Source of the DNA: Pseudanabaena cinerea FACHB-1277
GTDB lineage: Bacteria; Cyanobacteriota; Cyanobacteriia; Pseudanabaenales; Pseudanabaenaceae
DNA: 64,000 bases
Reading direction: 5' to 3'
NCBI RefSeq assembly: GCF_014696345.1
Contig: NZ_JACJPY010000002.1
Location: forward strand, 62,001-126,000
Shown: piece after piece, positions 9,552 through 58,752 of the stretch
How the letters are laid out: the number at the start of each line of letters is the position of its first letter
Position numbering within the stretch: position 1 is the stretch's first letter
The notes under the pieces: generated by a model
What the model was told of the DNA's origin: nothing
Databases searched by the model: none
Seen by the model: only the letters and a program-made list of their open reading frames with translations
Made by a program: the position numbers and the translations under genes

Positions 9552-12500
9552 TTATTGATACACGTTGGGAATTGTGCCATCGGTAGCCGCCGCCCCGCCA
9601 TAGAATGAGCTATTGCAGCTAGACTTGAGGTCAGTACCGCGTAAGGTGCGGCGGCGATAGTTGGTTGGTAGGACACCGATACCTTTTCTTGTATTTTCAT
9701 CGATTGTTGATGGCTCCAGGGCGCATAGTAATCCCTCTACCCATTTATCATCGGCGCTAACCTCTCTAAAGAATTCATTAGCCCCTGGAATCGGTACGGC
9801 AAAACGTTCGGCAAAGCGATCGGGTTGCTGGGTCAATAAGCCCACATCATAGCCCCATAGGCGGTTAGGTGGAGCATAGTAAGGAATACGGCTACCTGTA
9901 AATGATTGATATTGGAGATTATAGCCGCCCGAAATACGGCCGTCAGTCGTGCCTGTACCAGGATGAGCGGGATTGAGGAAGACAGTGGTGGTGTCGCTGA
10001 TACCGTCAACTTGTGGCGTAGTTGGTGCAAAGGGGGCGGTAGCAAATCGGCTCTTTGTATTTTGGATAAATCCACCTGTGATCTTAATTGGTATATCTGC
10101 CCAATTTTCCAAGAACCTCACAAAGTTTGCCAAGCCGCCACCTGCCTCAGCGATATTAGCTTGGGCGGCTGTGCCAGTGGCAGTGCTGCCAAATAGGGTG
10201 CTAGAGGCGCGGTATGGTACTTCATTTCGCGCAGGGCTGTTACCTGCGACAAAGTAGATATTAATTTCGGTTCTGACGGGGCGAATTGTCCATTGTCCTG
10301 ATCGCACAGAACTAACGCCAGTGCCTTGGGGTGTACCATTGATACCACCTTCGGTAGTTATAGATGCGGGTTGTTGGATCGTGGTTGTGCCATCGGCTAG
10401 GGCATTAGGCACACTAAGCTGTACCACTGGCAACAGTTGCGGTTGCTCAACTGAGGTCATCGCCACAAATAGAGTTTCGCTATTAACTTTTTTGGCATCT
10501 CCCCATAGACCCAAGAAGCGCACACCTCTGAAGGAGTTGTAGTCTTTGCTGGTTGTCGGATCGAGTCTAGTTGTGAATACGGAAGTATTATCTTCAGTGG
10601 GAGTGCCAGTACCTATGGTATAGCCCAAGAAATTACCAGTAATAATATTCGGTCTGCCCTTCATCCCTTCAAATACGAATGCAGGCTCAGCCCCTAGTTT
10701 AAACTCTGCATCACCATCAATGTTGACTTCATTTGCAACACTGTTGCAGTTGTATCCACCAGCAGGCGGCGGAACTAAGGATAGCTTGACCTTAGCACCA
10801 GCTTCACAAGCAATGTAATAGGGTGTACCTGCACTCAACCCTGATGGCAAAGTATTAGTACCATCAGAAAATATAATGCGTTTACCAATTTTTATACGCT
10901 GGCTATTAGGATTGCTAGGGAAAAGAATAAAGTTATTGTTGGCAGGGTTTCCTGTTGCTGCCGTCGATTTGACAGGATCTAGCCTTTCTTCTGCCCTTGA
11001 CGATACCCAGAAAATGTTATTGGGATCAACGCCGTCTAGCTTGATTTGCAAGCCCTTAAATTCGATACTTTCATTGGGCAAGCCTCTGAAAATGAATACG
11101 GGGCTAGGTCCACGGCGGATGCTGGTGGGGGTGCAAGCACTATCTGCATTTGTTACAGGGTCGGCACAGTTGGCTCTGAGGGTCAATGTGCCTGATAGCG
11201 ATCGCAGATCTGGCGCTACTGCAGGATCGCCTGTGGGCTCAGTTGTGCCGAGGCTGCTGATGTTATAGACCTGAACGCGATTGTCGGCAAAGGTGTTTCT
11301 GGCTCTGACGATCGCATCCATACTAAAGGCAAATCTGCCAATCCCCACCTTGGTGTTATCAGTCCCAAGTTCTTCGTCAACGATATTTAAGGCAGCGCCG
11401 CCCGAGGTTTTGGCAATCTTAAAGCGATTGTTAAATCCAGTTTGAATTTCGCGGACGTAGTAGGTTGACTTAACATCTAGCCTTCTGACAATGATGCCAT
11501 TGCCACTTAGAAGTGGCACATTCACAAATGTTAGCGGATCACCATTAAGGGTGTCAGATAAACCAAACTGAGTACCAGAGCGATTTACCACATAATAATC
11601 AGTATCAACGGTTAGAGGAACGGGCAGTAGGGGTAGAGTGCCTGTAAACCTGATTAAGTCGCCATTTACTAGGTCTGCGCTAGATACCAAACTATTGGCG
11701 ATCGCTCCTCCTGTAAAGCTGAATGACTCAGTATATTTAGGTAACTGTCCATTTTTGCTGACAGGGAAGACGCGCAGGGGCTGATTTTCGGTAAATGTTA
11801 CGCCTGTTGTATTAACATCGGCGGTAAGGAGGTCGTTGGTTGTGGGGACAAAGGGAATTGCGCCACGCACAAGGGCATCGGCAGTGGCTGGCAGTGGCAC
11901 AACGCCAGTACTGTTGGTAACGTTAGGCACTAAACCAATAAAGGCATCGGCTCCTGTATTTCCAGGATTAAGCTTGGCGCTCAGCAAGCCAGTACCGCCT
12001 GTTAAGGTTGTGCCAGTATTGGGATTGGGTAATGTTCCGACAAAGTTCCTAATTGCTTGACCAGGACTATTTGCACCTTGAGGACAACTGCCAGCGCTGA
12101 TGTCGGTTTTGCTTAGGGATGGACGCTGGATCGCTTGATAATTGCGGGTGTTGCCCGTGCCGCCGCAGACTGTAAAGCTAGTGGCAGGTTGGACTGAACT
12201 AGTTGCGTTAATACGACTAACATTGTCGGATGGGAAGTGGGGGTTGTAGGGAAGATTGAGGTTGAGCAGGGTGACGGTGCTATCGGGATCTGGAGCTTTG
12301 ACGATGCTAGTATTAAAGTCATAGGGCTTGGTGGTGCAGCGATCATCGACAGTGCCATTGCTGAGGTTGATGCAGGGGGTGGGCGGCAATACTAAGCTGC
12401 CTGTGGAGTTTAGATTTGCCCTAAAGCTATTAGCACCACTGCCAATAACAGGGAAACTGAGGTTATTGATAAACAGGTTGTTATTGTTTTGATAGCTGAT

Positions 12501-15500
12501 GTTGCCACCTTCACCAAGATAGTTGGCATTGCTTACTGCTGTCCTAAACCATAGACTACGGTTTGCGCCAGTGGGGCGATCGCGCCGCATTTGCCGATTA
12601 TTAGCGTTAGTAGCATTATTCTCAGAAATTGCTTGCGTGAAGTCACCAGGCAGCATGGGAATTTCGCCGCCAGAGGCTGGACGGGGTGGAATATTCGGGA
12701 AGATATTCTCATTGGGATCTGTTATATCAATAGTGCCATCACCATTGACATCTTCGCCCCATACATATCGTCCGCCCTGTGTTCCGCCATTTTCTAAATT
12801 AGAGGGTGGATTAAATGGACGGTTAAAAATATCGCCAGAGGCATGGGGGAATGGATAGGCAGCCGCAGGAGATGAGATCATTGAGAAGGGTAAGCCCGAT
12901 GGCTTGGGCAAGCTGGCAAATACTGGAGGAGTAATTGAGTTAAGAATAGGTCCACCACCACCAGGCGTTGGCGTTGGCGTGGGTGTTGGTGTTGGCGTTG
13001 GCGTTGGCGTTGGCGTTGGCGTGGGTGTCGGTGTCGGTGTCGGGCAAGGCCCTGATGGAATTTCGCGATCATCGTTATTTGTATTAGTTAATCCCGATTC
13101 ACAAGTGGGAGATTGATTCTCTTCGGGATCTCGAGAAAGGATTCGTCCGCGCCTCGTGCGATTACTACCGTAGGTGGCTTGAGGTCCCCGAATATTATCA
13201 AGACGAATCTCAAAATCTTCATTATTTGGCTCGTCAGCGCTATCGCGAACCACCAACACAGTCACAGTTTTGACAGTCGGATCGTCGGCTGTACCAGTGG
13301 GACCAGTCCAAGTCAGTACAGTACAGTAACGATCTGCTTCACAAGTGGCTTGTTCAGGTATAACAGTTTCTGGACTACTTGCGCCAATTCTCAGGCGAGG
13401 ATATTGTCCACCGTTGGCAGTAACTGGAATGCTGGCGGAGATAGTACCTGTACCTGCGGTGACTGCGCCAGTTGTACCGTCTAGCGTCTGAATATTGACA
13501 GCACTAGGCACAGTCATAGCTAGTGCTGTTGATGATGGATTGACTAGACGATTAAGATAGTCAGCTTTAGTTTGAGGATCAGCGTCATTTATAGTTGGGA
13601 ACTTGGAAGGTAAGCCTGGGAAATTGGAAGCCCCTATTTCACCTGGTTGAGCGGTTCCAGTCCTCCTGAGCGTGACCCTAACCCGTATTGTTTCTCCTGC
13701 GGCGAGGGTGGCTCTGTCAGAGCCTTCTATCTGGACATTAAAGTTAAATCTTCTGTAAACAGCATTATTCGTACTACGAGATCTATTAGTGGGGTTATTA
13801 GTAGGATTGGTAGCGCTAGTACTACTCTGACCACTCTCGTTGTCAGGAGAGTTGGTTACACTGCCTTCTGCTGTATTAGGACTGGGGATAGTTGTTACAC
13901 CATTATTGTCACCAGTTCCCCAAGTGACTGTGGGTAGATTGTCGGACCCAAGCTGATCTTCAAGAGCGCCAATAGCAGCGCCGCCAGTTGCTTGGTTCTG
14001 ATCGCGTCTACGACCTTCTGCAATATCTTGGTTGCCACTGCTAATCGTTACCCTGATACCACGCTCAGGACATGGCACAGTGCCATAGCTACTATTATTG
14101 TTGTTGTTGCTAAGGTCAAAAGGAGTGAGGCGATCGCCCATCACATGGGGGAAAGTATAGCCAGTTGTGGCATTGTCACCATTAATAACCCCAATACCAA
14201 GCGGGAAAATCACAGGGGGGCTAGCAGGATTTCTACAGCTACTAGCAAAAAGTAACTGTTGATTGCCATCTTTGTAAATATCATCAAAGCGCAAGAACGA
14301 AACCCTGCGGGCATAGCGAGAATTATCATTAGAAATAAATCTAGGTGCGCCTGCTGCTGTCGAGACAACTCCAGTCGTGGCATCAAACGCAGGTAAAGTG
14401 GTTGTACCCGCGCCAGCCTTCACCCAATCGGAGAAAGTACATTCACCAACAGGGAACTTGCGGCACATCTCCATGCCATATTCAGGGAAATTGACCCGCC
14501 GTTGAATTGGTGTAACCCCATTGGCATTGTAACTAGCAAGGTTGCCATTATTTGGAGGGGTCGCGGCGGGATTAGCAGGCCAGAAATTAGAATCGTCAAC
14601 GGCGGCTCCATCAGAGTTACGGCGATTGAGCCAGAGGGCGCTCGTGGCAAAATTATTATTAAAGAAACCAGAACGGCGGCGCTCAAGCACATAGGTACTA
14701 TCCTTGGGCGGATCATTGGGATAGCGTACAGGATTTAATTGCGATTGCCAGTTAATGCTAGTTGAAGTATTGGCATTATTTCGCAGGTCAAAATCGCCAT
14801 CGGTGCGATAGCCATCGCGGAAATTAGCAGATAGCACCGTGACCGCATCCGCCAAAACCGTGGCTGGTCGCCATTGATCTCCCAAGGTGCAAGTGGGGTT
14901 TTGACCAGGACGACAGGCAAAGTTAGGATCAAGCTCGTCATTATTGCCATTATTAGCGTGGCGGCGATAAAAATTGCTCCAATCATCTTGCAATAGCTGC
15001 GTAAACTCTTCGCGAGTATGCCTATTAAAGGCAGGAACCTCATTAGCAAGTGTGGTGGAGTTAGTGGGATCTCTTTGCGCCCTGACATAGACAGGCAGGT
15101 TAGACACAAGGGTTAAACCCTTTTCGCCCTTAGTTGCTTCTGTCCAAGGATAACTGGCATAGGTAACATCTGAAACTGGCAACTCATTGTTGACTCTATT
15201 GAGGTTGGCAGTATTGGTGAGAGCGCTGCGCCAGAGACGATAGCCATTGATCAGGCGGATCGCGCTAGGCTTGCGGGTAGGATCGAGGAGGAAGTCGGTA
15301 GAGCTTAGGTTTTTGCGCTTGGCTAGAGGTGTGGCGATCGGATCGAGGGTGGTAGAGTCGCGATCGTAATAGCTGAGGTCTTCGAGCGCATCTTCACGGG
15401 TAGCATAGACAACGCCACTATAGGGGAGTAAATAGTCAGTGGCAACCCCCGTGTTATTGCCGCCAACAAGCCTAGACCCACGCAGCCGATCCATGTCAAT

Positions 15501-18500
15501 ATCTGTGGTACGAATTTCCAGAGGTTGACGCTGCTCCAGTTCCAAATCGTAAATATCGCCACGATTTTTGGCGACTAGAGCTAAGCCCTGTGATCCAGCA
15601 GTATCAGTAACTCGTGGCTCATTACCAACAGCCGCCTCGGTCAATGACTCATTGCGATTGAGCGATTTTACTTCCCGTCCATCTAGAAACGCACTCTCTT
15701 TGAAAGCGCCGTGGGGAATTTGCACTGAGGTGAGGGCGGTGCTGCCTGAGGCGGCGGCGGGGGTAATACTAGCAGAGGCGGCGTTGGTGTTGGCAAGGGT
15801 GATCGAGCTGTCCAGAATTTGGAGGGCGCAGAGGTTAGAGTCAATGGTGGATTGCTGCGGTAGGGTCAATCTCGCTACGGCAGGGTTAGCTGAGTTGCTA
15901 GTAATAATCTTTTTGAGAGCCTCACGCAATGGCTCATTGGCAAAGCGTCCGTTAGGGAAGATTAGGTTCGCCTGATATGCCAATTTTTCGCCATAGGAGC
16001 CTGTCGTGGTTAGGGTTCTCGCAGCATTAGTAAATCTAAAAATGCCACTGCCTACGGTGCTAACACTGGTGTCATAGAATAAGCCCGATGCTGTGTCATA
16101 CCGAATATTGGTAAAGGTGACATCGGTGGAGGATGCTGTCCTGCCAACATTGTAGACTAGCCCATTATTAGAACGTCCTTGAGCATCGGCATTCCAAGGG
16201 GCAGCCGTTCCGCCAATGGGTGCATTTCTGGCAGTAATGGCATTGGAAGGATCGTAGTAGCTGCTGACACAGGCGATCGGGGCTTGGTAGTTGGTTGGTG
16301 CGCCGATCGCATTATAAGCGTCATATTTGTAGTGATAGATCGCCGATGCCCGCATTTGCAGATCGCCTTTGCGATTGTCAACGGTCGTACTCCAGCCATC
16401 AACATCATTCCCTGCATCGGGGTAATAGTAACCTGCGGTTGACCTCGGAGGGGTGGTGGCATTATTGAGCCAGCGCACATTCCCTGTCATGGGCATGGAG
16501 TCTTGCCAAACCACATAGTTGCGATTGTCATCAACGCATTCTTTGGTGGTGGTGTTGCAGCTAAGCTGGGCAAATTTGCGCTCATCAATGTCGCCTGTAA
16601 TGGGGTTGTCAATAGGCTTGCCATTCCATAGCGGCATACTCGACTCATCAAGATCTAGCACTGTGCCAGTGGAGCTGCTGCGATCGTCGGAGAAACCTGT
16701 ATGGAAGCGGGGTAAAAATGTGTCATTGATACTGCGGCTGTAAATACCTGCATTGGTGACAACACGCAAGCCACCAGTACGGGGTGATGGTTCTGGCGTT
16801 TTGATGGTGGGGTTAGTCGGATCGGTGATGGAGGGGTCAAGGGCGGCGGAGATTTCCCAGAAACCACCGCGATCGGTTACGCCAAGATTGCTAAGGGGGG
16901 TTGATCTAGTGAGGCGATAGCGCTCAGTACTGCTTACAGTTGCACCGCTAGTATCACTAGCGTTGTTCCAAAATACAGAAGCATTGGTGGTGAGGGGGTT
17001 TGGCTCAGTGTCACCAACAAATTCTAAGGAGCCTGAAACGGTATTAAGCTTTAGCCATTTTGCGGGTAAGCCATTGCCCACGAGAACGCGATCGCCCAAA
17101 AATCTTTCATTGTTTTTAGCAACCTCGGTTGGATCTGCCGCAAAGATAGATAGGCGATTGGCTGAGCTGGGAGTGAGCAGTGACACGCCATTGGTCGAAT
17201 CCAGAATCGCACCCTTGCCATCAAAGCCTGTCCCCGAAGGTAAGGAAAAACTGGCAATACCCTTACCAAAGTTGGCATTGGCATAGGCGGGCAACATCCA
17301 AGCGATCGGTGGCGCTAACTCATTAGGCTGTCCTGGGACGGGAATTGGAGTTAAGAGCGTAGTCGGGTCGGCAATTATGGGCGGGATTGCAGTGGTAAAG
17401 GGAACATCTCGGAAGGACACCTTACGGGTGCGTTCACCAAAATAGGCGGTTAAGGCAGCGCGTCTTGCCACTTCCACCTCATCATTAGAGGATAGAGCTT
17501 CGTCTAAAATGCGCTTGACTAGATCTTCTCTAACAGAAGTGGGATCGCCTTGGCTAGCAGGGCTGTAAGTTAGATTGGTCGATGTAAAGTTGCTGGGAAT
17601 TGGAGAAGGAATTGTCACCGTGCTACGGGCGATCGCCGCATCAACTAAGCGCCCAATCCGCCGATTAAATTCAAAATCGTTGAGTGCCAAACCTGAACTA
17701 CGGTTTTTCGGAATATTGACACTGCTATTGACGCTAACTGTGGAAGTATCGGCACTGCCAGTATCAGTAATTGTTAGCCTGCCCCCTGCAACAGTGTCAG
17801 GTGGTACACCAGCACCTCGGAAAAGATCCACTGATACATCCGTACCATTTGATAGCGTGGCAGGATCATCAAAAATTGCATTCCCTTCAACCACATTACC
17901 CGCAACCGCAATTTCACCATTCTTCTTTTCGTAATAGCAAGAACCGTATAAATCGGGATTTGTCGTGGTGGTTGGGGTACTGTCTAAGCTGCCCCCTGAG
18001 CTACTAACTTGATAGAAACTGATCGGGTTTTGCGATGCAGCCCCCACCATCAAATTACCAGCGCTATATATCCGTCCATTAATACGGAAGGTGGCAATAT
18101 TAACGAGTTCCGTATCTCCTTCAAAGAATACAGCATTGTTATTTTGTGGCGATCGCGCCCGATCCTGTTGCAACTCAACCGCACTAATGGAAGTAGTACC
18201 GTTATAAATCTCGTAATTGGTCGAATTAGCAGGAAAACTTCTGCTATCTGTAATGGGTAAAGTAACGGCATAGACAAAAAATGATTTGCGAAGTCGATTG
18301 TCACTAGATACCGTCCAACCGCCATCACTGGCAATGTTTGTTACGCTCCCAGTAGAGACGCAAGCCCCTGAAAGCGTTGTCTCATCCATTGGTAAAGTCC
18401 TTGACTCAATGGGTGTGATCGGGCGGTTCGCAATTGTGGGTGGACGGGTGCGGAAGAGAATGCTGTATAAACCATAGGAATCAAATTTGCCATTGTTATC

Positions 18501-19073
18501 GGTGTCAATGGGAAACTTCCATGCCGTTGACACATATTCCCGATTCTCAATTTGGGCGGCAGTAACGTTAATATTGCCATCAGGAGTCGTGGCTGATGAT
18601 GTGCCGCGAAAATCGTAGACTAGTTGCAGCCTCGTCTCATCGGGCAGAGTATATTTGCCGCTATCGTTAGTAATAACACTATCAAGGGTGAGTTCGGGTG
18701 GTGTGGTACGCGGCAGCTTGCCATCACTGAGCAAAGCATCAATTTTTGCCCTTGCGCGATCGACTATGGGCGTGGCTGCACTTCTAAAAACTTGCTCTTG
18801 TCTGGCACTAGCGGCACTTTGCGCCCTTTCTGAAGATCTAGATACGGTCGTAACCACGAGCAAAGTTACCACAAGGGTAACAAGTGTCACTGTTGGTAAT
18901 ACAAAGCCAGCCGCCGCCCCCTTGCCACGCCCCCGCGTTGCATTTAATAACTGCCGCACAAAGCGTCGACTAATCCTTACAGGACTACCGATTTTATTCA
19001 GCCATTTTCTTAATTTGGCAATAAATTCTGCAAAAAAACGATTAATTTTGCGGCTTTGATTAGAATCAGACAT
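9552..19073 (-). CDS. hpsA: Giant HpsA-like hormogonium polysaccharide protein
   Basis: HpsA is needed for hormogonium polysaccharide and motility in filamentous cyanobacteria. This 3173-aa copy opens with a basic cytoplasmic region and then a pilin-like helix, GFVLPTVTLVTLVVTLLVV (about 56-74). The family block RSAATPIVDRARAKIDALL with LPRTTP follows. The long exported part is rich in Asn, Thr, Ser and Asp and low in Lys. A Calx-beta-like stretch lies at about 1775-1960 (VRVTLRRTG, NEDFEIRLDNI). It is followed by a Thr-Pro linker of 13 TP units (about 2011-2036) and a C-terminal region of about 1100 aa. That region holds at least two copies of a G-x-x-YYV/I...L-S motif (near 2500 and 2760). 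I recall HpsA proteins as roughly half this size, so the TP linker and C-terminal block look like an extension. It heads the pilin cluster. Confidence 0.8.
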   Translation of the reverse strand: MSDSNQSRKINRFFAEFIAKLRKWLNKIGSPVRISRRFVRQLLNATRGRGKGAAAGFVLPTVTLVTLVVTLLVVTTVSRSSERAQSAASARQEQVFRSAATPIVDRARAKIDALLSDGKLPRTTPPELTLDSVITNDSGKYTLPDETRLQLVYDFRGTSSATTPDGNINVTAAQIENREYVSTAWKFPIDTDNNGKFDSYGLYSILFRTRPPTIANRPITPIESRTLPMDETTLSGACVSTGSVTNIASDGGWTVSSDNRLRKSFFVYAVTLPITDSRSFPANSTNYEIYNGTTSISAVELQQDRARSPQNNNAVFFEGDTELVNIATFRINGRIYSAGNLMVGAASQNPISFYQVSSSGGSLDSTPTTTTNPDLYGSCYYEKKNGEIAVAGNVVEGNAIFDDPATLSNGTDVSVDLFRGAGVPPDTVAGGRLTITDTGSADTSTVSVNSSVNIPKNRSSGLALNDFEFNRRIGRLVDAAIARSTVTIPSPIPSNFTSTNLTYSPASQGDPTSVREDLVKRILDEALSSNDEVEVARRAALTAYFGERTRKVSFRDVPFTTAIPPIIADPTTLLTPIPVPGQPNELAPPIAWMLPAYANANFGKGIASFSLPSGTGFDGKGAILDSTNGVSLLTPSSANRLSIFAADPTEVAKNNERFLGDRVLVGNGLPAKWLKLNTVSGSLEFVGDTEPNPLTTNASVFWNNASDTSGATVSSTERYRLTRSTPLSNLGVTDRGGFWEISAALDPSITDPTNPTIKTPEPSPRTGGLRVVTNAGIYSRSINDTFLPRFHTGFSDDRSSSTGTVLDLDESSMPLWNGKPIDNPITGDIDERKFAQLSCNTTTKECVDDNRNYVVWQDSMPMTGNVRWLNNATTPPRSTAGYYYPDAGNDVDGWSTTVDNRKGDLQMRASAIYHYKYDAYNAIGAPTNYQAPIACVSSYYDPSNAITARNAPIGGTAAPWNADAQGRSNNGLVYNVGRTASSTDVTFTNIRYDTASGLFYDTSVSTVGSGIFRFTNAARTLTTTGSYGEKLAYQANLIFPNGRFANEPLREALKKIITSNSANPAVARLTLPQQSTIDSNLCALQILDSSITLANTNAASASITPAAASGSTALTSVQIPHGAFKESAFLDGREVKSLNRNESLTEAAVGNEPRVTDTAGSQGLALVAKNRGDIYDLELEQRQPLEIRTTDIDMDRLRGSRLVGGNNTGVATDYLLPYSGVVYATREDALEDLSYYDRDSTTLDPIATPLAKRKNLSSTDFLLDPTRKPSAIRLINGYRLWRSALTNTANLNRVNNELPVSDVTYASYPWTEATKGEKGLTLVSNLPVYVRAQRDPTNSTTLANEVPAFNRHTREEFTQLLQDDWSNFYRRHANNGNNDELDPNFACRPGQNPTCTLGDQWRPATVLADAVTVLSANFRDGYRTDGDFDLRNNANTSTSINWQSQLNPVRYPNDPPKDSTYVLERRRSGFFNNNFATSALWLNRRNSDGAAVDDSNFWPANPAATPPNNGNLASYNANGVTPIQRRVNFPEYGMEMCRKFPVGECTFSDWVKAGAGTTTLPAFDATTGVVSTAAGAPRFISNDNSRYARRVSFLRFDDIYKDGNQQLLFASSCRNPASPPVIFPLGIGVINGDNATTGYTFPHVMGDRLTPFDLSNNNNNSSYGTVPCPERGIRVTISSGNQDIAEGRRRDQNQATGGAAIGALEDQLGSDNLPTVTWGTGDNNGVTTIPSPNTAEGSVTNSPDNESGQSSTSATNPTNNPTNRSRSTNNAVYRRFNFNVQIEGSDRATLAAGETIRVRVTLRRTGTAQPGEIGASNFPGLPSKFPTINDADPQTKADYLNRLVNPSSTALAMTVPSAVNIQTLDGTTGAVTAGTGTISASIPVTANGGQYPRLRIGASSPETVIPEQATCEADRYCTVLTWTGPTGTADDPTVKTVTVLVVRDSADEPNNEDFEIRLDNIRGPQATYGSNRTRRGRILSRDPEENQSPTCESGLTNTNNDDREIPSGPCPTPTPTPTPTPTPTPTPTPTPTPTPTPGGGGPILNSITPPVFASLPKPSGLPFSMISSPAAAYPFPHASGDIFNRPFNPPSNLENGGTQGGRYVWGEDVNGDGTIDITDPNENIFPNIPPRPASGGEIPMLPGDFTQAISENNATNANNRQMRRDRPTGANRSLWFRTAVSNANYLGEGGNISYQNNNNLFINNLSFPVIGSGANSFRANLNSTGSLVLPPTPCINLSNGTVDDRCTTKPYDFNTSIVKAPDPDSTVTLLNLNLPYNPHFPSDNVSRINATSSVQPATSFTVCGGTGNTRNYQAIQRPSLSKTDISAGSCPQGANSPGQAIRNFVGTLPNPNTGTTLTGGTGLLSAKLNPGNTGADAFIGLVPNVTNSTGVVPLPATADALVRGAIPFVPTTNDLLTADVNTTGVTFTENQPLRVFPVSKNGQLPKYTESFSFTGGAIANSLVSSADLVNGDLIRFTGTLPLLPVPLTVDTDYYVVNRSGTQFGLSDTLNGDPLTFVNVPLLSGNGIIVRRLDVKSTYYVREIQTGFNNRFKIAKTSGGAALNIVDEELGTDNTKVGIGRFAFSMDAIVRARNTFADNRVQVYNISSLGTTEPTGDPAVAPDLRSLSGTLTLRANCADPVTNADSACTPTSIRRGPSPVFIFRGLPNESIEFKGLQIKLDGVDPNNIFWVSSRAEERLDPVKSTAATGNPANNNFILFPSNPNSQRIKIGKRIIFSDGTNTLPSGLSAGTPYYIACEAGAKVKLSLVPPPAGGYNCNSVANEVNIDGDAEFKLGAEPAFVFEGMKGRPNIITGNFLGYTIGTGTPTEDNTSVFTTRLDPTTSKDYNSFRGVRFLGLWGDAKKVNSETLFVAMTSVEQPQLLPVVQLSVPNALADGTTTIQQPASITTEGGINGTPQGTGVSSVRSGQWTIRPVRTEINIYFVAGNSPARNEVPYRASSTLFGSTATGTAAQANIAEAGGGLANFVRFLENWADIPIKITGGFIQNTKSRFATAPFAPTTPQVDGISDTTTVFLNPAHPGTGTTDGRISGGYNLQYQSFTGSRIPYYAPPNRLWGYDVGLLTQQPDRFAERFAVPIPGANEFFREVSADDKWVEGLLCALEPSTIDENTRKGIGVLPTNYRRRTLRGTDLKSSCNSSFYGGAAATDGTIPNVYQ
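12964..13041 (-). repeat. Hexanucleotide repeat encoding the (TP)13 linker
   Basis: Thirteen in-frame hexamers, GGCGTT with GGCGTG, GGTGTT and GGTGTC variants on the + strand, encode alternating Thr-Pro within the hpsA-like gene. Hexamer slippage would change linker length without a frameshift. On the protein side a CPTP motif precedes it and GGGG follows. Confidence 0.9.
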
Positions 19074-19299: not shown

Positions 19300-20394
19300 A
19301 TGCCACCCAAATCATCCATCCCCAAAACACAACAACACTTCTCAACGTTTGATCCGCGTTACTTTTCGCAACAAATTCAAGTTACTTCAGCGCCCATGAC
19401 CGATGAGCTGAGGCGTTGGATCGCGGACAACAAATTTGCTGGGGTTGGCGATCGCTGGCTTGTGCAGGAGCTAATAAATCACGGTATCAGCCCTAGCGCG
19501 GCTAACCGAGAAGTAACCACAGTTAGTCAAAATCCTTATTTTCAAGCGGGGCAGAAATTTCTGCAACTACTAAAAAAACACGAATCCCACGCTAGCATTC
19601 TTGCTGACCTAGCATCACTATCCCCACAATCACAATCGATTGAATGCAGAGAAAAGATTAGCCGCAACGATTTTCTAGAAAATTATTATGCTAAAAATGT
19701 GCCTCTAATCCTTACTGGGATCACCAATAACTGGGCAGCCCTTTCACTTTGGAATCCTGAATATCTAAAAACTAATTTTGGACAAGTTGAAATAGAAGTT
19801 CAGAGCGATCGTAACAGCGATCGCCTTTACGAAATCAATATCGAAAAGCATCGCCAAAAAATGCAAATGGCAGATTATGTGGATGCTGTTGTAAAAGGTG
19901 GGGCAACTAATGATTATTATATGGTGGCAAATAACGGCAATCTTGAAAAAACAGCACTGCGCGGATTGCTCAATGATCTAGAGATATTTCCTGAATATCT
20001 CGATCCTCAGGATACCGATGGTAAAGCTTTCTTTTGGTTTGGCTCAGGGGGAACAATTACGCCTCTGCATCACGATCCTGTAAATCTGATCTTTGTGCAG
20101 GTTTATGGTCGCAAGGTATGGCAAATTATTTCACCACATTACACCCATATGTTGTACAACTATCGCGGTGTATTCAGCGAAGTGGATATCGAAAATCCCG
20201 ATTATGAAAAATATCCCCTATTTCAAAGGATTCCTATTATTGAAGTCACCCTCGAACCAGGGGATGCGATCTTTATGCCCGTTGGTTGGTGGCACGCTGT
20301 CAAATCCCTCGACATTAGTATTTCTATGTCCTTTACTAACTTTGTATTTCCCAATAAATATGACTGGAACTTTCCATCTATTACTTATACTTAA
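19300..20394 (+). CDS. Cupin/JmjC-like (cupin_8) Fe(II)/2-oxoglutarate oxygenase-type protein
   Basis: The 364-aa protein has an N-terminal helical region (about 1-110) and a C-terminal cupin_8/JmjC-like domain. The iron-binding facial triad is visible as HxD in TPLHHDPVNL and a distal His in PVGWWHAVKS. FQRIPIIEVTLEPGDAIFMP is the usual strand before the second motif. Relatives hydroxylate Asn, Asp or other residues in proteins or peptides; the substrate here is unknown. ATG 19300 has an AGAGGA Shine-Dalgarno. It is divergent from the hpsA-like gene across 226 bp and precedes a glycosyltransferase block. Confidence 0.85.
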   Translation: MPPKSSIPKTQQHFSTFDPRYFSQQIQVTSAPMTDELRRWIADNKFAGVGDRWLVQELINHGISPSAANREVTTVSQNPYFQAGQKFLQLLKKHESHASILADLASLSPQSQSIECREKISRNDFLENYYAKNVPLILTGITNNWAALSLWNPEYLKTNFGQVEIEVQSDRNSDRLYEINIEKHRQKMQMADYVDAVVKGGATNDYYMVANNGNLEKTALRGLLNDLEIFPEYLDPQDTDGKAFFWFGSGGTITPLHHDPVNLIFVQVYGRKVWQIISPHYTHMLYNYRGVFSEVDIENPDYEKYPLFQRIPIIEVTLEPGDAIFMPVGWWHAVKSLDISISMSFTNFVFPNKYDWNFPSITYT

Positions 20395-20470
20395 AACGCA
20401 GACTGTCGTGCCAACCGCTAAGCGGGCGACAAGGCATCTGGGTTTAGTTTATAACTATGTTGAGATACTT

Positions 20471-20589
20471 AATTATGTTAACCAAACAAGGTCAGTACAA
20501 TTGGCTATTAATCGGGGGAGGGTTATTGGTATTTCTAGCCTCTCTTTTTTCAATTATGGGATTTTGATCGCTTTCCCTATCCTGTATTT
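20471..20589 (+). repeat. Left copy of a ~120-bp direct repeat (5' end of the PMT gene)
   Basis: This stretch matches 21981-22101 over its whole length at roughly 85-90% identity with a 2-bp net indel. It runs from AATTATGTTAACC to CCTGTATTT. The two copies flank the AT-rich mannosyltransferase gene at 20598-21977. Confidence 0.9.
20475..20567 (+). pseudogene. Truncated duplicate of the PMT mannosyltransferase start
   Basis: The frame reads MLTKQGQYNWLLIGGGLLVF and then a stop after 30 codons. The intact gene at 21985 begins MLTKQGQYNWLLIVGGLFVF. Only the 5' end is present and it is shifted out of frame by an indel, so it is a dead fragment. It probably keeps the original upstream region of the PMT gene. 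Confidence 0.85.
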
Positions 20590-20597
20590 AGTCTTAT

Positions 20598-21977
20598 CTA
20601 AAATACTCGTGATAACGAGAACTGTATACAGTAAAAACAGAGAAGCATGGTTGTAATAAAATCCAGATATTTCTCAAGATGTTTATACTTGGAAACAAAA
20701 ATTGCCAACATTATGTATAGGGTAAACATTCCCGTAATGTAGCGAGATCCACTTAACAGCCATGTTGGCGAAAATGATATAAGAATGTAAGCAAAGGAAA
20801 ATAATGCATAGGATATTCTCATGTTTCTAAATGTATGTATAAGTATTGAGAAGGATAAAAAAAATAGAAATGTTTGTGGAATCCATACATTTATAGCCAT
20901 AATTTTACCTAGGGCAAAGATATTTATAAAGCCATTTTTTAAGTTCTCTGCAAAAAAGCCAAAATTTTGTATCCAATGCTCTTTTTGATAGGTTAGAAAC
21001 GTCAACCATTCACCAGACACAAATTTGTTGAGTAATAGATACCCAAACGTGCCAAATGGAACAAGTAGTAAACTAATCATCATTTGCAAATATGTCACAA
21101 AATATTTTTTATTAATGCTGGGTTGACTTTTTTTATTTAAATTGTTTAAATTTTTACATTCATAGATTATTTCAGTGATAATAGGTATCAGTAAAAGGAT
21201 TCCCTGCGTTCTTGTAAGAGCAGCTAGTAAACCTAGAAATCCTGACAAAAGCCAATTTTTCTCCCTTAAAAAATAGAAAGTCATAATACATAGACACATG
21301 AAAAGACTTTCTGTATAGACTATACTAAAGAAAAATGAAAAAGGAAATATTAGGATATATTTTATTGTATTAAATGCTATTTCATCATTTTTTAGTTCCA
21401 TCAGAATAAGTCGATAAACATAAAATAAAGCGACAATTAAAAATATATTAGATACAACTAATCCTGACAGGAAATAATCATTTATAAGTCTGTTGAAAAT
21501 ATTTATTAAGAGAGGATATAATGGATAAAAAACAATTAAGAATCTTTCATCTCCAGTATTTTGATAGCCATGCTGTGCAATTGAAAGATAATTTGCTGTA
21601 TCCCACTTACTCCATATTGCTTTAAGATGTTCAAGTATAGATAGTTTGCCACTATTTTCTGATATATAAAATGTAAAGTTGAGTATAAAAATTGTCATTC
21701 TATTCACAAAGAAAAAAGGCAAAATTTTAGTTAGAATATCTAAATTTTCATATAGTCTAAAATTTGAAAATGGAAAATTAAGATAGTTTAATCGTTTGAT
21801 TAGCTTGCTATCAGATTTAAATTTATTGACAGTAATATAGTTAGTCTCATTGTTATTAACTATAGGCAATATTTTGTCTGTATTGGAGTTCAATATTATC
21901 CTTTGAATCAGCAATATCAAGCATAGTAAAGTAATAAGCAAAGCTAAAATAGCGGTAGAATTAGCAAAAAAATTCAT
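20598..21977 (-). CDS. PIG-V-like integral membrane mannosyltransferase
   Basis: This is a multi-spanning GT-C type protein of about 459 aa. It has the family signature WDTANYLSIAQHGYQ followed by FYPLYPLLINIF, typical of PIG-V/GPI-mannosyltransferase-2-like bacterial proteins that use a polyprenyl-phosphate sugar. At least eight hydrophobic helices are seen. The preferred start is ATG 21977 (MNFFANSTAILALL), because the track's upstream codons lie inside the repeat shared with the PMT gene. The DNA is strikingly AT-rich compared with all its neighbours, and a ~120-bp direct repeat flanks it, so it looks horizontally acquired. Its ATG is only 7 bp from the divergent PMT ATG. Confidence 0.75.
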   Translation of the reverse strand: MNFFANSTAILALLITLLCLILLIQRIILNSNTDKILPIVNNNETNYITVNKFKSDSKLIKRLNYLNFPFSNFRLYENLDILTKILPFFFVNRMTIFILNFTFYISENSGKLSILEHLKAIWSKWDTANYLSIAQHGYQNTGDERFLIVFYPLYPLLINIFNRLINDYFLSGLVVSNIFLIVALFYVYRLILMELKNDEIAFNTIKYILIFPFSFFFSIVYTESLFMCLCIMTFYFLREKNWLLSGFLGLLAALTRTQGILLLIPIITEIIYECKNLNNLNKKSQPSINKKYFVTYLQMMISLLLVPFGTFGYLLLNKFVSGEWLTFLTYQKEHWIQNFGFFAENLKNGFINIFALGKIMAINVWIPQTFLFFLSFSILIHTFRNMRISYALFSFAYILISFSPTWLLSGSRYITGMFTLYIMLAIFVSKYKHLEKYLDFITTMLLCFYCIQFSLSRVF

Positions 21978-21980
21978 ACA

Positions 21981-22101
21981 AATTATGTTAACCAAACAAG
22001 GTCAGTACAATTGGCTGTTAATCGTAGGGGGGCTATTTGTATTTCTAGCCTCCCTCTCTTTAAGGTTATGGGATCTTGATCGCTTTCCCTATCCTGTATT
22101 T
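21981..22101 (+). repeat. Right copy of the ~120-bp direct repeat
   Basis: This is the first ~117 bp of the intact PMT gene plus 4 bp upstream. The partner copy is at 20471-20589. See the entry for the left copy. Confidence 0.9.
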
Positions 22102-23391
22102 GATGAGGTGCATTTTCCTAAGTTTGCCGAGAACTATTTATTGGGGATACCATCCAACGATGCACATCCGCCCTTAGGTAAATACTTGATTGCTTTGGGA
22201 ATTGTGTTATTTGGACATAACGAAATAGGCGATCGCGTTGCCAGTGCGGTCATCGGTGCGGCGATTCCTTTGCTAGTGACGGGGCTAGTCTATCGTCTTA
22301 CCTCAAAGACTTTTTTAGCCATATTGGCGGGGATAATGACCTTTGCCGATGGTTTGCTTTTGGTAGAGTCGCGCTATGGATTATTAAATGTCTTTCTGGT
22401 AGCACTGGGACTAGGATCACAAATTTTTCTGTTGACAGGTTTAGAAAGTCAATTAGCACATCAAGCAAAGTCACGTTGGCTAATGCTGAGTTTGTCAGGG
22501 ATTATGCTTGGTTTTTGTGCTGGGGTCAAATGGAATGGTGCTGGTTTTTGGTTAATGACTTGGATTTTGATCGCGATCGCCTTATTGGCAAGAAATCCAC
22601 TAATTCAAAAATTATTATCAAAGATGAATATAAATCTCAGCATCAAACTCGGTAAATTGGCAGACCTAGGGACTTTGCCTTGGTATCAATACTTGGTTTG
22701 TTTTGTGATTATGCCTGCGATCGCTTACATCCTCCAATGGACTCCCCACGTAATCATGGTACTAAAAACCTTTGCTCCTAATGCCACAGGCTGGCAATGG
22801 CTTCAGGCTTTTGGTAAACATTTAGCGATGAGTAACCAATATATTTACCAATGGAATACATCGCCTAGTTCTATTGGCACACCCGATCATCCGATCCATC
22901 CATACTGCTCAAGCGCTCTGTCATGGGCTTTGTCGATGCGTCCTGTTGCTTACTATTTCCATGCCGATGGCGATGTTTGGCAGAATGTCCATGCTTTGGG
23001 CAATCCGATTTTGTGGTGGCTATCGACCTTAGCGGTCATCGCGATCGCCTGTTGGGGAATTGTGAAAATGCGTCCAGCCCTAATCTATGTATCAGTGGGC
23101 TATGCCGCCAACTATTTCCCTTGGTTTATCGTCAAGCGTTGCCTATTTATTTACCATTACATGAGTCCTTCGGTATTTAGCTTCATTGCTCTAGCCATAT
23201 TAACTAATTCCCTCTATCAACAAAAGCAGATTTGGGGCAAAATTCTCGCTGTCATAATTATGACGGCGATATTTTCAGCACAAATATTTTTCATGCCGAT
23301 CTGGTTGGGTCTGCCCCTATCACCCCAAGCCTTTTATCAAAGAATGTGGTTTTTACCGAACAGCCCATTTTCAGGATTTAACTGGATCTAG
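21985..23391 (+). CDS. PMT-type (GT39) dolichyl/polyprenyl-phosphate-mannose protein mannosyltransferase
   Basis: The 468-aa polytopic GT-C glycosyltransferase carries the PMT signature: acidic FDEVHFPKFAENYL in the first extracytoplasmic loop, then AHPPLGKYLIALG and FADGLLLVESRYGLLN. The C-terminal part has WSLRPVAYYF-like and IYHYMSPS motifs of the four-TM PMT domain (SMRPVAYYFHADG, CLFIYHYMSPSVF). Family members move mannose from a lipid carrier to Ser/Thr of exported proteins. Its 5' end is duplicated upstream, and the original promoter has probably been separated from it. It overlaps the convergent gene at 23371 by 21 bp. Confidence 0.88.
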   Translation: MLTKQGQYNWLLIVGGLFVFLASLSLRLWDLDRFPYPVFDEVHFPKFAENYLLGIPSNDAHPPLGKYLIALGIVLFGHNEIGDRVASAVIGAAIPLLVTGLVYRLTSKTFLAILAGIMTFADGLLLVESRYGLLNVFLVALGLGSQIFLLTGLESQLAHQAKSRWLMLSLSGIMLGFCAGVKWNGAGFWLMTWILIAIALLARNPLIQKLLSKMNINLSIKLGKLADLGTLPWYQYLVCFVIMPAIAYILQWTPHVIMVLKTFAPNATGWQWLQAFGKHLAMSNQYIYQWNTSPSSIGTPDHPIHPYCSSALSWALSMRPVAYYFHADGDVWQNVHALGNPILWWLSTLAVIAIACWGIVKMRPALIYVSVGYAANYFPWFIVKRCLFIYHYMSPSVFSFIALAILTNSLYQQKQIWGKILAVIIMTAIFSAQIFFMPIWLGLPLSPQAFYQRMWFLPNSPFSGFNWI

Positions 23392-26201: not shown

Positions 26202-26278
26202 GTGAGTAGCTCAACATAAATTAAAATCTAAACCCAGAAATAGTTCCGTCCGCTACGCGGGCAAAATTATCTCTTGGT

Positions 26279-55476: not shown

Positions 55477-55483
55477 TTTTTGC

Positions 55484-55686
55484 GGTTAGCGGTTAGCGGT
55501 TAGCGGTTAGCGGTTAGCGGTTAGCAGTTAGCGGTTAGCAGTTAGCGGTTAGCAGTTAGCGGTTAGCAGTTAGCGGTTAGCAGTTAGCGGTTAGCAGTTA
55601 GCGGTTAGCGGTTAGCAGTTAGCGGTTAGCGGTTAGCAGTTAGCGGTTAGCGGTTAGCAGTTAGCGGTTAGCGGTTAGCGGTTAGC
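55484..55686 (+). repeat. GGTTAGC/AGTTAGC heptamer array, 29 units
   Basis: Twenty-nine contiguous heptamers fill 203 bp. With G for GGTTAGC and A for AGTTAGC, the order is G six times, then AG five times, then AGG four times, then G. The second-order period is therefore 14 bp and then 21 bp. The array starts 7 bp after the ndhF3 stop codon. Confidence 0.97.
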
Positions 55687-55700
55687 TGGTAAATCCGAAA

Positions 55701-55777
55701 AAGCTAAAAGCTAAAAGCTAATAGCCAATAGCTAAAAGCCAATCCCCAATTACCAATTATCAATTACCAATTACCAA
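55701..55777 (+). repeat. AAGCTAA to TTACCAA heptamer array, 11 units, before ndhD3
   Basis: Eleven in-phase heptamers read AAGCTAA three times, then TAGCCAA, TAGCTAA, AAGCCAA, TCCCCAA, TTACCAA, TTATCAA, TTACCAA, TTACCAA. The array is followed by ATTCACC and then the ndhD3 ATG. A 14-bp spacer separates it from the GGTTAGC array. No Shine-Dalgarno is visible. Confidence 0.93.
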
Positions 55778-55784
55778 ATTCACC

Positions 55785-57284
55785 ATGCTCAGCACCATCC
55801 TCTGGCTACCCGTAATCGGCGCTTTGGCGATCGCCTTGTTACCCAAGCCTCAATCCAAAAATATCGCCATAATTACATCTAGCCTTGTTGTAGTCCTGAG
55901 TCTAGGCTTACTCACACAATTTGATATTCATAATCCAGATTTTCAACTGTCAGAAAATTTACCTTGGCTCGAAAACTTAGGATTGAACTATAGCCTTGGT
56001 ATTGATGGTTTATCTCTGCCATTAGTCCTGTTGAATGGTCTATTAACTTGGCTGGTAATTTGCTTCGGCGATCGCCAGATCAAAGAGCGTCAACAACTTT
56101 TTTACAGCTTGATCCTGCTAATTCATGCAGGGGTTAATGGCGCAATTTTGGCAACAAATACTTTACTATTTGTGCTGTTTTATGAATTGGAACTAATCCC
56201 GCTTTATTTGGCGATCGCTGTTTGGGGAGGCGCACAGCGCAGCTATGCCGCCACTAAATTTTTGATTTTCACTGCCATCTCTGGCATTTTGGTATTAGTA
56301 GGAATTCTTGCCCTTGGCTGGCTGTCTGCCAATCCTATTCCCAACTTTGACTATCACACCCTGCAACATCTTTCCTTACCCATAGATGTCCAAATAACTT
56401 TGCTCCTAGTGCTATTGCTAGGCTTCACGATCAAAGCCCCTTTTGTTCCCTTCCATACATGGCTGCCCGATACCTATGTCGAGTCCACCACCCCAGTGGT
56501 GATGATGCTCGGCGGCATCGTTGCCAAACTTGGAACTTACGGACTATTCCGCTTTTGCTTGGGGCTGTTTCCTGAAGCTTGGGCGATCTTAGCTCCTTGG
56601 ATTGCATTGTGGGCGGGCTTAGGCATTCTCTATGGGGCAATGACAGCGATCGCCCAAAAGGATATCAAACGCATGGTTGCCTATAGCTCTATCGGACATA
56701 TGAGCTACATTCTGCTTGCCGCCGCCGCCGCTACCCCCCTTAGTCTTGTTGGGGGCATCACGCAAATGGTCAGTCATGGCTTAGTCTTAGCGCTGCTATT
56801 TTATTTAGTTGGCGTGATCGAAGAGAAGGTCGGCACAAGGGATCTCGATGTTCTCAATGGTTTGCTCAACCCTTTACGGGGCTTACCAACCACCAGCGCC
56901 CTCTTGATTTTGGGAGGCATGGCAAGTGCAGGCATTCCTGGATTAGTGGGATTTGTCGCTGAATTTCTCGTATTCCAAGGTAGCTTTGCCAAGTTCCCCA
57001 TCCCCACCATCTTCTCCATTATCGGCTCAGGACTCACCGCCGTCTATTTCGTGATCCTGCTCAATCGCACCTGCTTCGGCAAACTCGACAACAACACCGC
57101 CTACTATCCCAAAGTAACTGGACTAGAGCAATTACCCGCCCTAATTTTGACGGGAATTATCATTTTTCTGGGCATTCAGCCCATCTGGCTAACCCGTTGG
57201 AGTGAAGCTATCACCGTACCAATGGCAGACCAAATTGTAAGTTTCGCTGAAGTTTCGCTTGAATTATCTGAAATTAACGATTAG
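55785..57284 (+). CDS. ndhD3: NDH-1 subunit NdhD3 (CO2-uptake complex)
   Basis: The 499-aa NuoM-type antiporter-like subunit works with NdhF3 in the CO2-uptake NDH-1MS complex. It has LNYSLGIDGLSLPLVLLNGL, the Glu in LLFVLFYELELIPLYLAI, KAPFVPFHTWLPDTYVEST and IAQKDIKRMVAYSSIGHMSYI, all classic for the family, with about 14 helices. The 'D3' type follows from the operon partners. Its TAG stop codon is already part of the next heptamer array (GATTAGC AGTTAGC), so the repeat abuts the reading frame. Translation starts directly after a heptamer array. Confidence 0.93.
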   Translation: MLSTILWLPVIGALAIALLPKPQSKNIAIITSSLVVVLSLGLLTQFDIHNPDFQLSENLPWLENLGLNYSLGIDGLSLPLVLLNGLLTWLVICFGDRQIKERQQLFYSLILLIHAGVNGAILATNTLLFVLFYELELIPLYLAIAVWGGAQRSYAATKFLIFTAISGILVLVGILALGWLSANPIPNFDYHTLQHLSLPIDVQITLLLVLLLGFTIKAPFVPFHTWLPDTYVESTTPVVMMLGGIVAKLGTYGLFRFCLGLFPEAWAILAPWIALWAGLGILYGAMTAIAQKDIKRMVAYSSIGHMSYILLAAAAATPLSLVGGITQMVSHGLVLALLFYLVGVIEEKVGTRDLDVLNGLLNPLRGLPTTSALLILGGMASAGIPGLVGFVAEFLVFQGSFAKFPIPTIFSIIGSGLTAVYFVILLNRTCFGKLDNNTAYYPKVTGLEQLPALILTGIIIFLGIQPIWLTRWSEAITVPMADQIVSFAEVSLELSEIND

Positions 57285-57285
57285 C

Positions 57286-57348
57286 AGTTAGCGGTTAGCA
57301 GTTAGCGGTTAGCGGTTAGCAGTTAGCGGTTAGCGGTTAGCGGTTAAC
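57286..57348 (+). repeat. AGTTAGC/GGTTAGC heptamer array, 9 units
   Basis: Nine heptamers in the order A G A G G A G G G, the last one changed to GGTTAAC, follow directly on the ndhD3 stop codon, which itself lies in a partial unit (TTAGC). It has the same units and the same drift from AG to AGG as the larger array at 55.5 kb. Confidence 0.95.
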
Positions 57349-57363
57349 TAATAAATTCAAAAA

Positions 57364-57433
57364 AAGCCAAAAGCTAATAGCTAATAGCTAATAGCCAAAA
57401 GCCAATCACCAATCACCAATCACCAATTACCAA
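57364..57433 (+). repeat. AAGCCAA to TCACCAA heptamer array, 10 units, before cupA
   Basis: Ten in-phase heptamers read AAGCCAA, AAGCTAA, TAGCTAA, TAGCTAA, TAGCCAA, AAGCCAA, TCACCAA three times and TTACCAA. Two bases separate the array from the cupA ATG. A 15-bp spacer separates it from the AGTTAGC array. Confidence 0.93.
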
Positions 57434-57435
57434 TC

Positions 57436-58752
57436 ATGACCACGATCGCCCCATCAAAACCAACCCAACTCCCTCCCTCCACCCATCCCTACGCCGAAGT
57501 GATCCATCGCCTAGAGGCGGGTGGTTCGATGCTGCCCGATACGCCCGAAAACTTGATGCAGATTATTGGGCTATACAAGGCATATGCCGTGCCGATGGAT
57601 TTCTACTGGCGAGATTTGTTGTACATAGCCGAACAGGTATTTTTAGAACCCTTACCCGCCTTTAAATATTTCTTACCCCAAGAATATCTAGACTTGTTAA
57701 ACCACTATGCAGGAGATGAGGCGGATTTAAGGATTTGGCGTGGCTATGGCACTGCCCACCATGAGCTATTAGCATTTATGGAGCGTGGTGAATTAAAAAC
57801 AAAGTTGCCCAAGATATTCCATCATCTCTATCACGATCGCATCAATATGGAGTTTGCCGAAGAATGTATGCGGGCAATGTTTTGGCATCGCAATATGGGC
57901 GGCGAATTGGAGCCATATATGGACTCTGAGGAATATCGGCAAAATGCTGATCGCGCCATCCGCGCCTACTTTCGTAATAACCCCGTGATGTTGGGGCTAT
58001 ATAAACTCTTCCCTGAAGTATTTTTAGAACAATGTCGTCAATCGACCATGACCTCTGTATTGGGGCTATTTTGGGAAGTGATGGCTCCTGTGTTTTTTGA
58101 AATGTCCGATATTTACGATGAGGGTGGTTTTAAAGGCGTACCCGATGCCATGGACTTTTTAGTGAATGGCATCTTTGCGATCGCGGGTCGTCCGATTTAT
58201 CACCGTGTCAATATTGGCGGTGAATGGATTGATATCGTTCCCAAATCCAAAGGCTTTACATGGCTCTATGAGGCAGCTTTCCCCTATGTCGAAGCGGTGT
58301 TCTATCGCACTTCACCTTTCCGAGGTACAAAATCCTATAATGCCCAAGCCCATGAAATTCCCAGCGATCAAAATGAATTTCACTATGGCATTCTCTATGC
58401 TGACAAATTCCCCGTTGGCTCCGCAGGTATTCCCCCCACCTTGCTACATCAGGATATGTATCACTTCTTGCCACAATACCTAATCGATTACTACAAGCAA
58501 CATTGTCGCGGTGAGGATGATATGTTGATCCAGTTAGCCGTTAGCTTCCAGCGATCGATGTATAACGTCACCTCTGCTGTTATTCAGGCAGGACGCGCCG
58601 CCTTTTATTATCCTCTGGACGATCCTAACCCCAAGCATCTCCTCGCCAATCGCCATTATTTTGAAGGGCAACTCAATCGCTTCTGCAATCCCAAATATGG
58701 CATGGACAAAACCGCAAGACTAGCCATGATCCAAGATCAGAATTATCGTTAA
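57436..58752 (+). CDS. cupA: CO2 hydration protein CupA (ChpY)
   Basis: CupA attaches to the NDH-1MS complex and hydrates CO2 to bicarbonate using the proton/redox energy of the complex. The 438-aa soluble protein is diagnostic for cyanobacterial CO2-uptake operons. Visible conserved blocks are FYWRDLLYIAEQVFL, WRGYGTAHHELLAFMERG, HHLYHDRINMEFAEECMRAMFWH and YRTSPFRGTKSYNAQAHEIP. His and Cys residues in these blocks may bind zinc, which is inferred. The length fits the family. It is the third gene of the operon, with its ATG 2 bp after a heptamer array. Confidence 0.94.
   Translation: MTTIAPSKPTQLPPSTHPYAEVIHRLEAGGSMLPDTPENLMQIIGLYKAYAVPMDFYWRDLLYIAEQVFLEPLPAFKYFLPQEYLDLLNHYAGDEADLRIWRGYGTAHHELLAFMERGELKTKLPKIFHHLYHDRINMEFAEECMRAMFWHRNMGGELEPYMDSEEYRQNADRAIRAYFRNNPVMLGLYKLFPEVFLEQCRQSTMTSVLGLFWEVMAPVFFEMSDIYDEGGFKGVPDAMDFLVNGIFAIAGRPIYHRVNIGGEWIDIVPKSKGFTWLYEAAFPYVEAVFYRTSPFRGTKSYNAQAHEIPSDQNEFHYGILYADKFPVGSAGIPPTLLHQDMYHFLPQYLIDYYKQHCRGEDDMLIQLAVSFQRSMYNVTSAVIQAGRAAFYYPLDDPNPKHLLANRHYFEGQLNRFCNPKYGMDKTARLAMIQDQNYR

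Follow-up and report, generated by a model that had tools for sequence, protein, structure and literature searches.

In Pseudanabaena cinerea FACHB-1277, an AT-rich fragment of presumably foreign origin, holding a single gene, probably entered the start of a PMT-family gene that formed a pair with JmjC, and some 120 bp of the target was duplicated, so that one copy lies on each side of it. The locus is part of a 64,000-nucleotide stretch of contig NZ_JACJPY010000002.1 (the window), in which all positions are numbered. It was composed of the following features.

19300–20394, forward strand: JmjC/cupin_8 gene, the left neighbour (ORF; Cupin_8, 1.7e-43; synteny)
20391–20471, no strand: incomplete copy, somewhat degenerate, of the palindromic interspersed repeat of ~105 bp, AAGTAGCT...AGCTACTTA (copies in relatives)
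20471–20589, forward strand: left repeat copy L, the PMT 5' end (repeat search, alignment)
20590–21980, no strand: inserted segment, 1,391 bp, ~28% GC (composition; missing in the empty-site relative)
20598–21977, reverse strand: PIG-V-like gene, predicted GT-C type membrane glycosyltransferase-like, 459 aa from ATG (Pfam, homologue, codon-position conservation)
20606–20619, reverse strand: hairpin resembling a terminator, 3' end of the PIG-V-like gene, weak match to the consensus (hairpin scan)
21981–22101, forward strand: right repeat copy R, the start of the intact PMT (repeat search, alignment)
21985–23391, forward strand: PMT-family protein mannosyltransferase-like gene, intact, 468 aa (PMT_4TMC, 3.2e-27; PMT, 4.3e-25)

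Structure of the locus

The repeated unit consisted of the first ~117 bp of PMT and the 4 bp upstream of it, and the starts of L and R were offset by 1,510 bp. A single end-to-end alignment of the copies gave 121 columns with 11 substitutions and one 2-nt deletion, located in L. An independent repeat search paired 20471–20553 with 21981–22063 and, past the 2-nt gap in L, 20542–20589 with 22054–22101, both at 88%. When L was used as a query against the whole genome, R was the sole other strong match (BLAST E = 2.7e-39), which is far beyond chance. The alignment and the BLAST search confirmed the original prediction that the 5' end of PMT (~117 bp) occurs twice around the PIG-V-like gene. An assembly artefact or a chance repeat deserves almost no credence: no point was found in its favour, the copies differ by 9–12%, the junctions fall within a contig of 133 kb, and the E value is as given above.

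L began with the same ATG as PMT and reached a stop after 30 codons, reading MLTKQGQYNWLLIGGGLLVFLASLFSIMGF up to the stop; with this stop and the 2-nt deletion, its earlier description as a dead 30-codon fragment held. On the right, L stopped immediately ahead of the PMT Asp-Glu codons. Had PMT been duplicated in tandem long ago, and had the duplication afterwards been interrupted by the PIG-V-like gene and cut back to a remnant, a 5' fragment of PMT would likewise be expected on the left, but such a history is highly improbable: L ended 8 bp from the stop codon of the PIG-V-like gene, no PMT sequence past codon 39 was left in the insert (20590–21980), and no relative with two full PMT genes at the site was found.

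The start codons of PMT and the PIG-V-like gene were 7 bp apart and divergent, so that the promoter of either gene would have to sit inside the other gene or farther away. Consensus scans of the region gave little above chance. Three terminator-like hairpins were found in the region against 1.9 expected, and hence the single match behind the PIG-V-like gene was not significant on its own.

Composition and coding content of the insert

The PIG-V-like ORF filled nearly the whole insert, with at most ~10 bp to spare per side. Its GC content was 27.8%, against 41.7% for JmjC and 43.1% for PMT, as expected from the prediction that it is far more AT-rich than its surroundings, and its third-position GC was 25%. 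A two-breakpoint likelihood fit, run as the proposed composition scan, placed the steps at ~20450 and 21999, where they had been predicted, with 28% GC inside and 43% outside. Neither an unshifted composition nor two full PMT genes in relatives, the outcomes named beforehand as contrary to the original prediction, was seen.

The PIG-V-like protein matched PF04188 with 23.7 bits over residues 122–319 only, a marginal score that just exceeds the Pfam gathering cut-off of 22.4. A PMT_2 match (Pfam) was below threshold, and PIG-V was matched by 4 of the 11 aligned homologues. A polytopic GT-C-type glycosyltransferase is a reasonable label for the predicted product. When the gene was compared with its nearest homologue, identity at codon positions 1, 2 and 3 was 70, 81 and 53%, respectively, and 48% at fourfold sites, a pattern that shows the PIG-V-like gene to have been under purifying selection. 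A mannosyltransferase of the PIG-V family would have a GT-C fold and take its mannose from a polyprenyl-phosphate donor; the AlphaFold2 model, computed from the single sequence, had a pLDDT of 45 and was too poor for any claim.

The PIG-V-like protein had no match among PDB sequences, NCBIfam gave sub-threshold matches only, and Rfam gave no match. PADLOC also returned no match, and the cargo was not a restriction-modification or similar selfish gene. In the ORF list and by Pfam, no transposase or integrase ORF was found between JmjC and the YfhO-like gene, and the repeat search found no inverted repeats at the ends of the insert.

Empty site and age of the duplication

Among relatives, the nearest PMT was that of Pseudanabaena mucicola FACHB-723 (locus L046), with 76–78% amino acid identity. 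The two genomes shared the gene order large pilin-like – JmjC – PMT – YfhO-like – methyltransferase – GT2. In P. mucicola the JmjC stop was 12 bp from the PMT ATG, the PIG-V gene was absent from the locus, and one PMT start without a repeat was present, which is the arrangement that had been proposed as a check for a relative lacking the gene. The JmjC and PMT genes therefore appear to have formed a close and probably co-transcribed pair, now split by the insertion. The empty site supported the predicted integration with partial duplication of the target, the PMT frame being kept whole at one junction. A single genome with the empty site was found, and its nucleotide divergence in these genes is 17–37%, which makes the junctions unreadable to the base.

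In the window, the large pilin-like gene was a very large ORF of 3,173 aa (9552–19073, reverse strand) with a prepilin-like hydrophobic N-terminus (GFVLPTVTLVTLVVTLLVV), and it was also located beside JmjC in P. mucicola. It presumably resembles HpsA-type pseudopilins.

The body of PMT was 75% identical to that of P. mucicola at the nucleotide level, the neighbouring genes were 63–83% identical, and the divergence was flat along the gene. As PMT was no more diverged than its neighbours, it looks resident. A foreign origin of PMT was considered and was unsupported, given the flat divergence from P. mucicola.

When L and R were compared with each other, 11 of 119 aligned bases differed (9%), whereas each copy differed from P. 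mucicola at 29 of 119 (24%). These differences show L and R to be sister copies, made by a duplication in this lineage that postdates its split from P. mucicola. The age of the duplication corresponded to ~40% of the raw divergence from P. mucicola. With P. mucicola as the outgroup, four substitutions and the deletion were assigned to L and four substitutions to R, and three were undecided. Three of the four substitutions in L were at codon positions 1 or 2, and the fourth was in a stretch of doubtful outgroup alignment. Together with the 2-nt deletion, these three are as expected of a dead, decaying fragment.

The differences between L and R were clustered in the middle of the alignment, with 36 columns at its start and 26 at its end identical (simulation P about 0.001). 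Such clustering could be due to partial gene conversion or to one complex mutation in L. It is not predicted by simple drift following one duplication and counts against the best explanation, the in-place duplication. Patchy identity of this kind agrees with a Campbell-type single crossover, in which a small circle carrying the PIG-V-like gene and ~120 bp of PMT homology was integrated, so that one copy came from the donor and the other was resident, and the 9% difference partly predated the event. This route also yields the exact A-B-X-B-C structure. It is nevertheless unlikely, as L and R were equally distant from P. mucicola, a circle consisting of one ORF and precisely the PMT 5' end would be an unlikely cargo, and the plasmid searches described below found no plasmid carrying the gene or the region.

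Homologues and possible sources

A close homologue of the PIG-V-like gene was present in only one of 26 genomes of the genus, that of Pseudanabaena FACHB-1998 (G002, L051), with 60–61% amino acid identity and 27.9% GC. It was found at a different locus, with a small coiled-coil-type gene on one side and a protein kinase gene on the other. The same pair occurred without PIG-V between the two genes in 13 other Pseudanabaena genomes, which makes this a second, separate insertion in FACHB-1998. Distant homologues (~30%) were found in a few Pseudanabaena and in other genomes of the phylum. A plasmid collection searched with the DNA of the 4-kb region gave no match, tblastn with the PIG-V-like protein found no relative in plasmids and phages, and a first contig scan with the protein gave no confirmed match.

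In three genomes (G012, G006 and G038; L049, L050 and L057), a distant PIG-V-like gene was located divergently upstream of PMT, in an orientation like that of the window, and in G012 and G006 a DedA/TVP38-like gene, named from sequence, was located between the two. This arrangement lends itself to replacement from a donor that already had the PIG-V-like gene and PMT as divergent neighbours. Homologous exchange in or beyond PMT on one side would have been combined, on the other, with illegitimate joining to the 5' end of the resident PMT (homology-facilitated illegitimate recombination), with no duplication in place. The PIG-V proteins of these genomes were only 28–31% identical and their PMT only ~50%, however, and the divergence of PMT from P. 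mucicola was flat and like that of its neighbours, which makes a donor replacement quite improbable. The shared neighbourhood in G012, G006 and G038 is a hint that the gene is functionally linked to PMT, and no hint of a shared ancestry for this locus.

A palindromic repeat at the duplication edge

The first reading of the locus was right about the insertion and missed the palindromic repeat that ends at the left boundary of L. The ~80 bp from JmjC to L was a partial copy of this repeat and not unique sequence, and its left part overlapped the end of the JmjC ORF. The terminal TACTTA of the repeat occupied 20466–20471, so that the end of the repeat met the start of L within one base. Dozens of related copies were present in other Pseudanabaena genomes, against at most about three matches in this genome. 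A chance coincidence of so rare a repeat with the exact edge of the duplication is unlikely, and the few copies and the exact match at the edge make it probable that the repeat predated the insertion event or was present while it took place.

This position suggests a break at the palindrome as the start of the event, which is sensible and not proved. A specific causal role is a rather doubtful proposal: nicking or hairpin cleavage at the right end of the palindrome (directly after TACTTA) and a second cut ~120 bp into PMT would fix the left edge of the duplication. A REP-type transposase as mobiliser of the repeat was rejected for its misfitting distribution; the repeat-rich genomes G038, G021 and G006 had no Y1_Tnp match, and therefore no nicking enzyme can be named. 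No consistent simple target-site duplication of the palindromic repeat was found. ATACTTAA was matched at each end of the copy in the window, and may itself belong to the palindromic repeat.

The ~105-bp palindromic repeats (L061–L074 and related loci; 20391–20471 and about 26205–26238 in the window) had conserved ends and a conserved CCGCCCGC..GCGGGCGG centre, and their inner stems varied greatly while staying complementary within each copy, as in the pairs ATTGCCATG/CATGGCAAT, ATTACTGTG/CACAGTAAT and AGCGAGTAC/GTACTCGCT.

The FACHB-1998 homologue was likewise located 5' of palindromes, and no long direct repeat was found at that locus. Perfect palindromes with 30-bp and 29-bp arms occupied 9620–9686 and 9730–9790 of L051, starting 32 bp past the PIG-V stop.

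Elsewhere in the window, heptanucleotide tandem arrays were located at 55482–55777 and 57281–57436 (GCGGTTA x29, TTAGCGG x9, and CCAATTA and AAAAGCT blocks). We take them to be of the kind called short tandemly repeated repetitive sequences in cyanobacteria.

Proposed course of the insertion and known systems

In the insertion favoured here, the ends of a break in the PMT start would have been offset by ~120 nt, or repair would have copied ~120 nt twice. The fragment would then have been joined between these ends without a dedicated recombinase. The PMT reading frame would have stayed whole in R, and L would have been left beside JmjC as a remnant that subsequently decayed. No donor or intermediate is known.

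Integrase islands, formed by tyrosine or serine integrases, enter the 5' or 3' ends of genes, with att repeats that as a rule fall far short of 120 bp. As in such islands, the target gene was whole at one junction and a fragment at the other; unlike them, the locus had no integrase, a ~120-bp repeat and a cargo of one gene. It also differed from a classical transposon, with its short fixed target duplication, terminal inverted repeats and transposase, in its duplication of ~120 bp and in the lack of inverted repeats and transposase.

The structure of the locus corresponds to insertion with long target duplication (ILTD), a form known from restriction-modification genes in Helicobacter pylori (Nobusato et al. 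2000, which PMC1643837 cites and illustrates). PMC3031569 refers to 'long and variable target duplications', and PMC4978471 to a restriction-modification insertion flanked by direct repeats. As in ILTD, the accessory gene was present or absent between relatives, with an empty allele and conserved flanks in P. mucicola, and the long direct target repeat (119/121 bp here) was single-copy in the empty strain, with no transposase. The cargo differed, being one glycosyltransferase-like gene; restriction-modification genes are usual in ILTD and not obligatory. In contrast to the H. pylori cases, the host was a cyanobacterium, the repeat began at the end of a palindromic repeat, and the copies were older and diverged.

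In Arabidopsis, transposed genes with flanking host-derived repeats have been explained by circles from tandem arrays (PMC2869330). The locus resembled them in that a moved gene lay between direct repeats whose sequence is not that of a transposon and also occurs at the orthologous site without the gene. Unlike that eukaryotic case, it gave no sign of circles from tandem arrays.

Significance

This route for the insertion of single genes into bacterial chromosomes is uncommon and already described. The lone glycosyltransferase-like cargo is new, as is a duplicated unit that starts exactly at the end of a palindromic repeat. The locus provides a clean, relatively dated case with an empty site, in which a lone gene other than a selfish restriction-modification system is flanked by a target duplication of ~120 bp without a recombinase, and it extends the Helicobacter restriction-modification pattern to a cyanobacterial gene of surface-glycan type. 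The coincidence of the duplication edge with the palindrome end offers a hypothesis on the opening of such sites that can be tested, and it is the sole part that might lead further. If a break at the palindrome did start the event, palindromic interspersed repeats in Pseudanabaena would be places where single foreign genes can land.
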